Below are positions 43,086 through 46,469 of a stretch of DNA of 63,767 bases, piece after piece. The DNA is from Prolixibacteraceae bacterium (lineage in GTDB: Bacteria > Bacteroidota > Bacteroidia > Bacteroidales > Prolixibacteraceae). A model generated the notes under the pieces. The model was not told where the DNA came from, did not search any database, and saw only the letters and a program-made list of their open reading frames with translations. Position 1 is the stretch's first letter. Each line of letters starts with the position of its first letter. Made by a program: the position numbers and the translations under genes. The DNA lies in NCBI GenBank assembly GCA_019459525.1, contig JAIBEY010000110.1:1-63767 (forward strand). Reading direction: 5' to 3'.

Positions 43086-43121
43086 AACTAAATATTTAGT
43101 TTGAAAACTAAAATATTAGTT
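43086..43121. promoter_or_regulatory. First pair of BlaI-type palindromic operators
   Basis: AACTAAATATTTAGTT (43086-43101) is a perfect 16-bp palindrome and AACTAAAATATTAGTT (43106-43121) keeps perfect AACTAA/TTAGTT arms. Their centres are exactly 20 bases apart, two helical turns. Site 1 covers the -33 element and site 2 lies in the spacer of the promoter at 43100-43130, so occupancy would block transcription. Confidence 0.75.
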
Positions 43122-43130
43122 ATATGTTTG
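43100..43130 (+). promoter_or_regulatory. Perfect promoter overlapping the BlaI-type operators
   Basis: TTTG (43100-43103), 19 bases, TATGTTTG (43123-43130): an exact match in both elements and spacing to the Bacteroidota primary-sigma consensus. It leaves a leader of about 175 bases to the ATG at 43313, which itself contains the second operator pair. Confidence 0.85.
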
Positions 43131-43228
43131 TGTCGGATATCCAATCAACTGATAAACGGATTGTTGGCTTATACGTGCCATTTCTGTTCATCAGATTGAT
43201 TCAAATTGTTCTTTTTTTTGTCTTTTAT

Positions 43229-43264
43229 AACTAAAATGTTAGTTGACGAACTAATTACTTAGTT
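43229..43264. promoter_or_regulatory. Second pair of BlaI-type palindromic operators
   Basis: AACTAAAATGTTAGTT (43229-43244) and AACTAATTACTTAGTT (43249-43264) have the same AACTAA/TTAGTT-type arms, and their centres are again exactly 20 bases apart. They lie in the leader of the upstream promoter, 50-85 bases before the ATG, and near a TTTG at 43217. They may act as roadblocks or on a second, weaker promoter. Confidence 0.7.
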
Positions 43265-43312
43265 TCTGGCAAGATTTTTGAGATTTCAAAACAAAATTTA
43301 ACTTGAAATGTG

Positions 43313-43699
43313 ATGAAGGAATTAACCAAGGCTGAGGAACAGATTATGCAGGAATTGTGGACGCTAGAAAAAGCTTTTGTCAAAGAAATTGTCGATAAGC
43401 TTCCAGAGCCAAAACCTGCATACAACACGGTTTCTACCATTATCCGGATTCTGGAAAAGAAAGGATTTGTTGACCATTACGCGTACGGAAAAACACATCA
43501 GTATTTTCCGCTGATCAGTAAGACGGATTACACGAAATCGTACTTCAAAAATTTCCTGAATGGTTATTTCAGCAATTCGTTTCAGGAAATGGTTTCGTTT
43601 TTTGCCAAAGAAGACAAAATGAGCCTCTCAGAACTTGAAGACTTAATCAAGGAAGTAGGAAAAGATTTGGAACCTGAAAATCCATCGACCAATGACTAG
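43313..43699 (+). CDS. BlaI/MecI-family transcriptional repressor
   Basis: The ATG at 43313 follows an in-frame GTG directly; the former gives 128 residues. The winged-helix domain is clear: KELTKAEEQIMQELW, FVKEIVDKLPEPKPAYNTVSTIIRILEKKGFV (split by position) and YGKTHQYFPLIS, the wing. A C-terminal helical dimerisation region carries SFQEMVSFFAKE. BlaI/MecI repressors bind palindromic operators as dimers and are cleaved or released when a cognate BlaR1 senses a signal. The four AACTAA/TTAGTT palindromes upstream are the obvious targets, so autoregulation is expected. The coding end overlaps blaR1-like start by eight bases, which indicates translational coupling. Confidence 0.95.
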   Translation: MKELTKAEEQIMQELWTLEKAFVKEIVDKLPEPKPAYNTVSTIIRILEKKGFVDHYAYGKTHQYFPLISKTDYTKSYFKNFLNGYFSNSFQEMVSFFAKEDKMSLSELEDLIKEVGKDLEPENPSTND

Positions 43700-45140
43700 T
43701 TTTGTAAATTACCTGCTGGAATCCGGAATAAGCCTTAGCCTTTTCGCGCTTGTTTATTTCCTGTTTCTACGGCGTGAAACATTTTTTAATGTCAACCGCT
43801 GGTTTCTGTTGGTTTCTATTGGCTTCTCGGCATTTTTGCCACTGTTGCGTATCCCGTTTTATACGCCGCAGGCAACGGTATTGCAAGAAGTTACGGTAAC
43901 GCCTTATGTGAATTTGCTAAGTTCGGTTACTATTTACGGAGCGGCATTGTCGCAAGGGGCTGAGCAGTTTGTATTGAACTACAGTTTGCTAGGTTATGTG
44001 TATTTAGCAGGTATGGTGTTTTTCGCTGCCATATTCTTTTTCCGGATTTACCAAATCATTCGGTTGATTGCGCAAAACCGGGTTGTTCCGGACGGAAAGA
44101 TAAAGCTGGTTATTCTGGACAAGGAGTTAAGTCCGTTTTCTTTTCTGAATTACATTTTCGTAAGTAAAAACCTTCAGAACACCAAAGGCTGGGAAAAAAT
44201 GCTTGAGCACGAAAAACAGCACATTCAGCAAGGGCATACTTTTGATGTACTTGTTCTTGAATCTATTGCTGTATTTCAGTGGTTTAATCCATTCTTCTGG
44301 ATGTTCAGGCGGGCACTACGCGAAAATCATGAATTTTTGGCCGACCAGGCCGTTATCTCTCACGGAACTGCACCTTCGTGGTACAAGCAGATCCTACTCA
44401 ATCAGTATATTGGTGAACAAATTGTAATTGCCAATAACTTCAATTATTCGTTAATCAAAACCCGTATTCAAATGATTACTAAAATAAAATCCAGAAAAAT
44501 TGCCAATGTAAAATTCCTTGTGGGATTTGTGTTGGCAGCAAGTTTAGTTGCCGTTTTTGCATGTGAGCAAAAAGATTCGGTGAAAACCGAACTGGTGGCA
44601 GGTGAAAAAACGGTGACCTTGGTTGCCGATGGGCATTCGCTCCAGATAAACGGTGATTCGGCAGGAATAGAAAAACTAAGAAGTATTATTGCCGAGTCGG
44701 GCGACTATGAGTTGAATGTGGATGGTGCTACCGGTGAAATGAAATTGACCGGTAAAAACAATAAAGTTGGTGAAATAGTTGCTGTTGCTTATGATGGTCA
44801 GGAAAAATCGGCTAAGGTTGACGAAGAGGTCTTCTTTGTTGTGGATGAAATGCCTGAGTTTCCCGGTGGACAACTTGCATTGCGTCAACATATTGCTCAG
44901 GCTGTAAAGTATCCAGTCAAAGCACAAGAAAATGGTATTCAGGGGAAAGTGTTTGTAACTTTTGTGGTGGCCAAGGATGGTTCGGTGAAAAATGCAAAAG
45001 TTGTGCGTGGTGTCGATCCATCGCTTGACCAGGAAGCGCTGCGTGTTGTGAATAGCTTACCTAAATGGAAACCAGGAAAACACAAAGGTGAGATAGTAGC
45101 AGTATCCTACACCGTTCCGATCAATTTTGTTTTGCAATAA
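43692..45140 (+). CDS. BlaR1-like M56 metallopeptidase with TonB C-terminal domain
   Basis: The 482-residue protein has four predicted membrane helices in the first 280 residues and an M56 zinc site HEKQH (His173, Glu174, His177) in MLEHEKQHIQQGH. In classical BlaR1 the extracellular C-terminus is a penicillin-binding sensor. Here it is replaced: after a helix ending near FACEQ (about 288), a small beta domain (TVTLVADGHSLQIN) and then a TonB_C-like domain (residues about 385-482: FPGGQLALRQHIAQAV, GKVFVTFVVAKDGSV, PINFVLQ). This architecture is common in Bacteroidota antirepressor pairs; the inducer is unknown, and nothing suggests a beta-lactamase. Cleavage of the adjacent BlaI is the likely action, in the inner membrane. 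Confidence 0.93.
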   Translation: MTSFVNYLLESGISLSLFALVYFLFLRRETFFNVNRWFLLVSIGFSAFLPLLRIPFYTPQATVLQEVTVTPYVNLLSSVTIYGAALSQGAEQFVLNYSLLGYVYLAGMVFFAAIFFFRIYQIIRLIAQNRVVPDGKIKLVILDKELSPFSFLNYIFVSKNLQNTKGWEKMLEHEKQHIQQGHTFDVLVLESIAVFQWFNPFFWMFRRALRENHEFLADQAVISHGTAPSWYKQILLNQYIGEQIVIANNFNYSLIKTRIQMITKIKSRKIANVKFLVGFVLAASLVAVFACEQKDSVKTELVAGEKTVTLVADGHSLQINGDSAGIEKLRSIIAESGDYELNVDGATGEMKLTGKNNKVGEIVAVAYDGQEKSAKVDEEVFFVVDEMPEFPGGQLALRQHIAQAVKYPVKAQENGIQGKVFVTFVVAKDGSVKNAKVVRGVDPSLDQEALRVVNSLPKWKPGKHKGEIVAVSYTVPINFVLQ

Positions 45141-45227: not shown

Positions 45228-46469
45228 ATGAAACAGAAAACAGTGATCTTCATTTTGCTCCTTCTGCCGTTTCAGTTGTTTGCCCAAACCATCGACGAGC
45301 TTATCCTGAACAAAAAGTACGACAAGGCTTTAGATTATATTTCGGCACAGATCCAGGAAAAACCCGATGCCGGAATCTATTTTAAACAAGCCTTGGTTTA
45401 CAGGGAACTCTCGAATCCGATGCTTGCATCAAAGGCACTTGAAGCCGCCTTGTTTTACGAGCCAAAGAACAGTTTAATCCTGGCAGATTTAGGAGAGAAT
45501 TATGCTTTGCTTGGCAATCAATACCAGTCGGTAGAGTGTTTCCGGCAGGCCGCCTCGCTAAGTCCGGAGAACCTGAGCCTTCAGGCAAAACTTGGCAAAG
45601 CTTATATCAGTATCGATGATTTTCAGCGGGCTTTCCAAACTTTTGAAACCATTTATAGGGTTGATTCCGTTAATCCGTATTTTAACAAGCAATTCGCTTT
45701 TTCAGCATTCCGGACAGGTAAACCCGATTTAGCCATTCGCTTGTATGAAAAAGTGATAGCCGAAAATCCGGGCGATTTTACTTCGCACTTAAACCTGATT
45801 TCGGTATATAAACGTAAGAAAGATGTCGGCCAGGTTTTTAGTTCCGGAAACAGGGCGCTAACCATTTTCCCTAAAAATCCTACTTTGCTGCTCAGGCAGG
45901 CCGATGCCCTTTTCGAGCTGAAGGATTATGAACGGGCAATCGTTCCGTACGAAAGCTATCTTTCTGAAAACGACTCGACTTACGAGGTACTTAAAAATTA
46001 TGGAATAGCTTTATACTTCTTCAAAAAAGAGCAATTGGCTATCCCAATGCTTGAAAAGTGTTACGCTATGGTTCCTGATGATCCTTTTGTGCATTTTTAC
46101 TTGGGTTTAGCGTATAAAAATATGGCCGATTACGAGCGGAGTGCAGAATACCTGCTTGCTGCCATTGCCTGCGCACAGCCCGTATATATGACTGAGATGT
46201 ACCACCATTTAGGGCAGGTTTACGGGAATAACCGCGAATTTGAAAAATCGATTGAAGCCTTGAAAAAAGCTTATGAATTTAATAATGAACGGGTGGAAAT
46301 TTTGTTTGAGATTGCAACCACTTACGAAGAATTTGATTTCAATAAAACGATGGCCTTAAATTATTATTCGAATTATTTGAAGACCGCTGGTGAAAAGGCT
46401 AAAAATGCAAATTATGCCCTGGATCGGCTAAAGAAAATAAAGGAAGATTTGTTTATTGAGAACAAATAG
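45228..46469 (+). CDS. Exported tetratricopeptide-repeat protein
   Basis: The 413-residue protein has a signal peptide (residues 1-17, ending LFAQ). It consists almost wholly of TPR helix pairs: YDKALDYISAQI, PMLASKALEAALFYEPKN, QYQSVECFRQAASLSPENL, DFQRAFQTFETIYRVD, PDLAIRLYEKVIAENPGD, YERAIVPYESYL, EKSIEALKKAYEFN. About nine repeats cover residues 20-390. These form a superhelical protein-binding surface in the periplasm. Its place right behind the BlaI/BlaR1-like pair suggests that it belongs to the same regulated set, but a hairpin lies between them. It has no catalytic motif. Confidence 0.88.
   Translation: MKQKTVIFILLLLPFQLFAQTIDELILNKKYDKALDYISAQIQEKPDAGIYFKQALVYRELSNPMLASKALEAALFYEPKNSLILADLGENYALLGNQYQSVECFRQAASLSPENLSLQAKLGKAYISIDDFQRAFQTFETIYRVDSVNPYFNKQFAFSAFRTGKPDLAIRLYEKVIAENPGDFTSHLNLISVYKRKKDVGQVFSSGNRALTIFPKNPTLLLRQADALFELKDYERAIVPYESYLSENDSTYEVLKNYGIALYFFKKEQLAIPMLEKCYAMVPDDPFVHFYLGLAYKNMADYERSAEYLLAAIACAQPVYMTEMYHHLGQVYGNNREFEKSIEALKKAYEFNNERVEILFEIATTYEEFDFNKTMALNYYSNYLKTAGEKAKNANYALDRLKKIKEDLFIENK

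Follow-up and report, generated by a model that had tools for sequence, protein, structure and literature searches.

The operon and its encoded proteins

The stretch of DNA analysed here (the window) comprises 63,767 nucleotides from a Prolixibacteraceae bacterium (GenBank assembly GCA_019459525.1, contig JAIBEY010000110.1), and on its forward strand three genes that form a putative operon lie downstream of four dyad-symmetric sites. The first gene (43313..43699) encodes a 128-residue repressor of the BlaI/MecI type, which matches PF03965 with an E-value of 2.1e-32 (112.3 bits against a cut-off of 22.6) and, among proteins of solved structure, MecI (E 7e-13) and BlaI (E 2.6e-07). The second (43692..45140) encodes a BlaR1-like M56 peptidase (PF05569; 38.3 bits, cut-off 31) with an HEKQH motif and a TonB C-terminal domain (PF03544), and the third (45228..46469) a TPR-repeat protein assigned by profile match. 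Residues 92-98 of the repressor read EMVSFFA, a sequence that is invariant in 90 aligned BlaI proteins and that, read with the MecI alignment, we take to be the cleavage region. Given that the operators at the locus are a variant, with dyads of the form AACTAA-N4-TTAGTT and none of the TACA/TGTA type, membership of the BlaI/MecI family rests on the protein.

BlaR1 and MecR1 are likewise M56 peptidases encoded beside a repressor gene. Unlike them, the protein of the window ends in a TonB domain, and no beta-lactam sensor domain was found in it either with Pfam, which gives M56 and TonB_C alone, or with NCBIfam, whose blaR1_generic profile scores 23.7 bits against a cut-off of 400. Thus the inducer is probably something other than a beta-lactam.

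To place the locus among its relatives we drew on a survey of the family, in which 140 genomes were searched and 95 had a close relative; 96 loci matched, of which 90 were read. The family so surveyed takes in loci identical to records of Sunxiuqinia, Tangfeifania and Prolixibacter, which NCBI places in the Prolixibacteraceae. An M56-like match lies 3' of blaI in all 86 loci with enough sequence, and a TPR match lies further on in 51 of 53. All of the evidence presented here is comparative, and the per-locus counts are not independent of one another.

Two pairs of probable operators

Four exact copies of the 16-bp dyad AACTAA-N4-TTAGTT, which carry no strand assignment, precede the repressor gene. 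Two of them, at 43086..43101 (AACTAAATATTTAGTT, conserved in same-genus orthologs) and 43106..43121, form a distal pair, and the other two, at 43229..43244 and 43249..43264, a proximal pair; within a pair the dyad centres are separated by 20 bp, and 143 bp separate the start of one pair from that of the other, exactly as a preliminary description of this DNA had reported. Three further sites in the window match with two mismatches, and the resulting total of seven sites at up to two mismatches compares with 5.0 expected by chance, so that the weight lies with the exact dyads alone. The 5.54 Mb genome contains five exact dyads, four of them at this locus; the fifth overlaps the stop codon of a different gene and is probably a chance occurrence. 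When one mismatch is allowed, the genome holds 26 sites, fewer than the 73 of the reversed pattern, so that the motif shows no enrichment, and it is therefore the clustering of sites, and not the motif itself, that counts.

The pair is a far more specific signal. Of 395 genomes of the class, 15, the window's among them, contain the pattern ACTAA-N4-TTAGT-N6-ACTAA-N4-TTAGT, while its reversed control has no match; the second pair places in the window's own genome and in genome G314 were left out as separate loci. At each of the 15 class loci fetched, one of them the window, a blaI-type gene follows immediately. Scanning named genomes gave at least 119 stretches with a pair, and among the matches listed 99 of 119 have blaI within 600 bp downstream.

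In the family, where a pair was accepted within 450 bp of blaI with up to four mismatches over 20 arm positions, 84 of the 90 loci keep at least one pair, 38 having two and 46 having one. Wherever neighbouring strong sites lie less than 60 bp apart in the 450 bp upstream of the 90 blaI genes, their spacing is exactly 20 bp (112/112), a count that is independent of the mismatch-based pair definition. Within the window's own genus (g1), a close ortholog was found in 17 of 23 genomes (the window's is one of them); both pairs are present at 14 of these loci, the second being decayed in one (L022), and three (L024, L034, L035) have kept the P1 pair alone. This retention upstream of orthologous blaI genes bears out the earlier proposal that the dyads are autoregulatory operators of the blaI/M56-TonB/TPR operon, and on comparative grounds the four dyads are very probably operators of the protein encoded at 43313. 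The search for other regulon members that had been suggested alongside it gave, in the window's own genome, a single further exact site that we judged to be chance.

The genome encodes two more strong BlaI paralogs and a weak fourth match. Reading the sequences upstream of the strong paralogs (L002, L003) by hand, we found three sites resembling AACTA-N7-TAGTT at 21 bp and two GACTA-N6-TAGTC sites at 40 bp, the last site running up to, or nearly up to, a TAnnTTTG box. Sites that differ between paralogs are the pattern expected of operators matched to their own regulators. An operator rule for BlaI-type regulators of Bacteroidota, AACTA-N6-TAGTT twice at 20 bp, would be useful in regulon prediction. 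Our literature searches returned no title on BlaI operators in Bacteroidota, several result lists being the best few of many (8 of 5,905; 10 of 665), which leaves absence unproven.

For comparison we assembled a set of 101 loci outside the family (72 and 29, among the matches listed), a few of which are apparently duplicates, one contig having entered through two collections. Family membership was assigned by hand: L083, L098, L104, L138, L142, L153, L160, L174 and L182, whose DNA is identical to that of family loci, were counted as family, as was L125 (83% alike). L142 is a 94.5% ortholog of the window's locus with DNA identical to the same-genus locus L030, and L174 is identical to L033. Two more loci, L123 and L088 (the latter titled Salinivirgaceae), were left out of the set as well; neither GG-N8-TTG, a T tract nor a second cluster was found in either. 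Outside the family, among the matches listed, none of 72 loci and one of 29 has two clusters of pairs. The exception, L146 from Saprospiraceae, has two clusters before blaI, the nearer being a row of five sites, and has neither a T tract nor GG-N8-TTG.

A primary promoter under the distal pair

The promoter that had been proposed under the first pair, P1 (43100..43130, forward strand), was found as described: TTTG at 43100-43103, a 19-bp spacer at 43104-43122, within which the second distal site lies, and TATGTTTG at 43123-43130. In the family, TAnnTTTG stands at a fixed offset 3' of the distal pair, being exact in 37 of 38 loci and matching at five of six positions or better in all 38. In what follows a P1 is called close when it lies within 330 bp; in genus g201 a close P1 is missing from 30 of the 33 loci with sites, a loss complementary to that at L024, L034 and L035, which keep only the P1 pair. 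At 43136-43143 in the window, and in many relatives, GGATATCC (GGAATTCC in some) comes after P1 near the place where the transcript is expected to start.

A putative second promoter beside the proximal pair

Immediately 3' of the proximal pair, at 43265-43282, lies TCTGGCAAGATTTTTGAG, an element missed in the preliminary description. It contains, on the forward strand at 43268..43281, the sigma-54-like GGCAAGATTTTTGA (GG-N10-GA), which we designate putative promoter P2. The motif GG-N8-TTG[CTA] abuts 57 of 84 proximal or single pairs in the family, compared with a mean of 1.26 and a maximum of 6 in shuffled sequence, and among the matches listed GG-N8-TTG was found at none of the 101 outside loci. 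For a stricter motif, drawn from the same loci, the 140-bp segments preceding blaI at the 90 loci contain 35 copies, with 8 more elsewhere in 789 kb, both strands counted, and its reversed control gives 13. The motif is missing from 27 of the 84 pairs, some of which have a TAnnTTTG-type box there instead. The window's own P2 has GG and TTG at sigma-54 spacing but reads TTGA, ending in GA where relatives have GT or GC; the commonest form in the family is TTGT, and the sigma-54 consensus is TTGC.

At 21 loci, all from genus g201, the GG is part of the final half-site, AGGT, and nearly all of these loci carry the mirrored change in the first half-site, ACCT or GCCT. At L190, L196 and similar g201 loci the result is a symmetric pair with outer half-sites ACCTAA and TTAGGT, the -24 GG being within the operator.

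The genome encodes one RpoN and eight strong activator domains. The canonical motif TTGGCAYN5TTGCW is not enriched in it (two matches, two in the control), and when the eight activator loci were scanned under relaxed criteria, some 20 matches were scattered among them without any clear pattern. Both grpE and groES are described as sigma-54-dependent in B. thetaiotaomicron, and grpE also in F. psychrophilum, in the part of the source that treats these genes (PMC12316311). In the window's own genome TGGCAGTATATTTGC lies upstream of grpE and TTGGCATAGTATCTGC upstream of one groES, the latter reading CTGC and thus falling outside the GG-N8-TTG pattern; upstream of a second groES-like gene (L270) no sigma-54-like site was found. 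On balance it is reasonably probable that P2 serves as a sigma-54 promoter across the family, and for the imperfect copy in the window we put the chances at about even.

In 42 of the 90 family loci the fetched stretch includes a tonB-like gene 5' of blaI and in the same orientation; none of the 42 close-P1 loci is among them. The proximal pair with the putative P2 could thus stand as an internal promoter between tonB and blaI, and the arrangement in which P1 and P2 are close together may have arisen by loss of tonB. The second pair does lie downstream of P1, as had been noted when it was placed in the leader; however, with 57 of 84 such pairs adjoining GG-N8-TTG it appears to be more than a block within that leader.

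A T tract at a fixed distance from the operator

A T8 tract (43212..43219, forward strand), likewise missed in the preliminary description, ends 9 bp before the proximal pair of the window. Scoring any run of at least six T (T6-T10) as a T tract, we found one ending 8-9 bp before the proximal pair in 34 of the 42 close-P1 loci, 32 at 9 bp and two at 8 bp; when the 40 bp before the pair were shuffled, a T tract appeared in a mean of 0.42 of 42 loci (maximum 4). Seven genera (g1, g211, g217, g199, g200, g198 and g213) have it at every close-P1 locus or miss it at just one, and the eight loci that lack it include all three from g201; elsewhere it occurs in 0 of 1 locus of g212, 0 of 1 of g202 and 1 of 3 of g215.

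A T run ending 7-12 bp before the pair was seen in 5 of 41 loci without a close P1 and in none of four loci with P1 only. In two of these five exceptions (L221, L226) a long ORF separates the tract from a P1-type site farther upstream; in two (L207, L230) a long ORF stops a short way ahead of the tract; and one (L237) lies at a contig end. Outside the family, among the matches listed, a T tract at 7-12 bp occurs in 6 of 72 and 1 of 29 loci. For the association between T tract and close P1, Fisher's p is 1.9e-11 in a test that ignores the non-independence of loci within a genus. Given that the distance from the T tract to P1 is free and the distance from the T tract to the operator is fixed, the position of the tract is apparently set by whatever occupies the operator.

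When RNA polymerase is halted by a DNA-bound roadblock, the RNA 3' end reportedly lies about 14 nt before the obstacle, as for EcoRI Q111, a figure that our literature searches did not confirm. At such a distance the RNA 3' end of a polymerase stalled at the proximal pair would fall in the T tract, and it is on this coincidence that the roadblock reading is based. The layout of operator pairs and T tract thus suggests, without proving, a transcription end that depends on the repressor.

The P1 leader

The leader between P1 and the T tract (43131..43211, forward strand) forms a stem-loop in individual folds. The window's hairpin before the T tract has a folding energy of only -2.8 kcal/mol (z -0.6), and among 33 loci tested six have hairpins at or below -6 kcal/mol and four a z at or below -1.5, the remaining 29 lying above -1.5. 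Since hairpins are mostly weak, we rejected an intrinsic terminator as the general reading. In certain genera, g200 and g213 among them (the latter outside the 33-locus test), the T tract does have G+C-rich stems before it, and where a T tract follows a hairpin, ordinary termination may hold in places.

Across the leaders of the window's genus RNAalifold gave a short helix only, with one compensatory pair. Imposing the fold of one member on the other leaders of the genus gave 72.5% paired cells, compared with 27-47% when the fold was slid along them, and shuffles equalled that fold in 45 to 57 of 500 cases on four measures and in 406 of 500 on the number of pair types. A conserved stem-loop in the leader of this genus is thus suggestive, and we do not regard a conserved RNA structure as established by covariation and shuffling.

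Ribosome-mediated attenuators make use of leader peptides, TnaC being an example. A similar element is found in other genera of the family: at 19 of the 20 loci outside g1 that have both a T tract and a close P1, an ATG ORF of at least eight codons has its stop 0-5 nt ahead of the tract, compared with 0.84 of 20 in shuffled sequence, and ribosome stalling on it is a putative likeness to the TnaC type. The window's genus differs in having no such mini-ORF (0 of 14; shuffles 0.62), and as other start codons gave nothing consistent, we rejected a leader peptide for this genus. The encoded peptides end in Pro in 13 of 19 cases, from six genera, some copies being identical; some of the Pro codons come from C-rich hairpin arms, so that the Pro ending may be a by-product. 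Mini-ORFs ending in Pro-Pro-stop directly before the T tract were seen at L203, L231, L233 and L252-L256.

A proposed two-promoter model with a repressor roadblock, and its alternatives

The explanation that in our view accommodates these features best, and to which we give roughly an even chance of being right as a whole, is that of two promoters, each with its own operator pair, combined with a BlaI roadblock that stalls transcription from P1 over the T tract. BlaI dimers would bind two tandem dyads 20 bp apart as a 36-bp unit. The distal unit would cover the -33 end and the spacer of the primary-sigma promoter P1 and so block it, and the proximal unit, lying just upstream of P2 or overlapping it, would block P2, which in most family members would be a sigma-54-like -24/-12 element. 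The proximal unit would also act as a roadblock for polymerase coming from P1, which would be halted with its RNA 3' end positioned on the T tract, 10-17 bp before the operator, and the weak rU:dA hybrid there would favour release. An envelope signal would activate the M56-TonB protease, and the resulting cleavage of BlaI would open both promoters and remove the roadblock. Of these elements, sequence statistics bear directly on the pairs and their 20-bp spacing, on P1, on the link with blaI, and on the placement of the T tract and its link with an upstream P1; we infer the binding and cleavage of BlaI, the use of P2 by sigma-54 and the roadblock-assisted termination.

BlaI/MecI and CopY of Firmicutes belong to the same family of homodimeric repressors and have paired operators over the promoter of their own operon, and in CopY systems, as set out in sections of one study, the operator is TACA/TGTA and many have two operators, mostly 24-39 bases from each other (PMC7253601). 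The present locus differs from CopY in the dyad AACTA-N6-TAGTT, in centres exactly 20 bp apart and in a second pair beside a second promoter. Likewise, LacI, CodY and CcpA bound downstream of a promoter halt polymerase and lead to termination (PMC4132739, PMC10310618, each as far as its relevant sections go), Mfd being the main terminator at the LacI roadblock (PMC4132739, in part); here, by contrast, a T tract is held 8-9 bp before the operator.

One alternative is plain double repression, in which the second pair adds a block in the P1 leader and neither P2 nor the T tract has a role. The operators and P1 on which it relies are strongly supported, the window's P2 is imperfect in a genome where the canonical sigma-54 motif is not enriched, and two layers of repression have been proposed for paired CopY operators and, according to passages of the same source, for BlaI too (PMC7253601). 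However, at 41 loci the proximal pair or site stands without a close P1, 39 of these having an upstream tonB-like gene, and the pair is therefore more than a leader block; the GG-N8-TTG motif at 57 of 84 pairs against 1.3 by shuffling and the fixed T tract speak against it as well, and we find this alternative doubtful. The double block suggested in the preliminary description thus stands as regards the operators and the covering of P1 by the first pair, and needs amending as regards the second pair, which usually adjoins a sigma-54-like P2 of its own and has a T tract before it. It might instead be supposed that P1 makes a short RNA or small mRNA ending at an ordinary intrinsic terminator, that P2 alone drives blaI, and that the distance from T tract to operator reflects compact packing. 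The T6-T10 tracts, the G+C-rich stems of genera such as g200 and g213, the mini-ORFs just before the tract and the suggestive stem-loop of g1 are all compatible with this, but the local hairpins are mostly weak and a terminator needs no exact distance to an operator, yet 32 of 34 tracts lie at 9 bp and the other two at 8 bp; we consider it unlikely.

The repressor loop that had also been envisaged fares worst. Two strong paired sites some 143 bp apart could in principle be joined by a DNA loop, and the phase vector for the full set of 42 loci, whose members are not independent of one another, is 0.42-0.49. The distance between pairs nevertheless varies, from 136 to 146 bp within the genus and from 102 to 297 bp family-wide, the 11 genus medians show no clear helical phase (p about 0.66 at 10.5 bp; about 0.03 at 11.0 bp, uncorrected and one of four periods tried), and three same-genus species have no second pair. 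We therefore rejected the loop as the main reading and consider it very improbable.

Within the two-promoter model, a more specific and decidedly tentative possibility is a repressor-dependent terminator, in which a DNA-bound BlaI pair, and not an RNA hairpin, halts polymerase over a U-tract and leads to its release. In several genera a ribosome on the mini-ORF could then decide whether polymerase pushes through, and the same repressor would shut the sigma-54 promoter. If true, this would join primary-sigma and stress-type control on one envelope-sensing operon. Roadblocking by repressors is known already, and the question raised here is whether the sequence before a roadblock is tuned for polymerase release. 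A roadblocked polymerase is terminated, and upstream sequence may matter beyond the factors tested, in the sections of PMC4132739 that deal with this. Evolution seems to have fixed the T tract 8-9 bp from the operator pair, mainly where a promoter lies close upstream, and this fixed placement makes the question of tuning directly testable. Our searches found no title on T tracts tuned to a roadblock, several result lists again being the best few of many, so that absence is unproven.

Pairs without an adjacent blaI gene

Among the matches listed, no blaI was found within 600 bp downstream for 20 of the 119 pair stretches; 14 of these were inspected, the remaining six being L145, L156, L164, L170, L171 and L181. 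At L081 and L111 the pair precedes an operon that has blaI further on. The pair of L082 lies ahead of tonB, as does that of L111, where blaI and an M56 gene then follow, and both loci have a third site.

At L128 the pair lies directly 5' of a TPR-like gene, possibly a separate regulon member. L065, L095 and L101 come from one Alistipes MAG, as does the L170 stretch, and are three intergenic palindromic pairs away from any detected blaI, perhaps a repeat family. The pair also occurs in records titled Thermoplasmatota (L115, with no blaI nearby) and Aminicenantes (L149 and L163, with blaI), which possibly reflect misbinned contigs or transfer.
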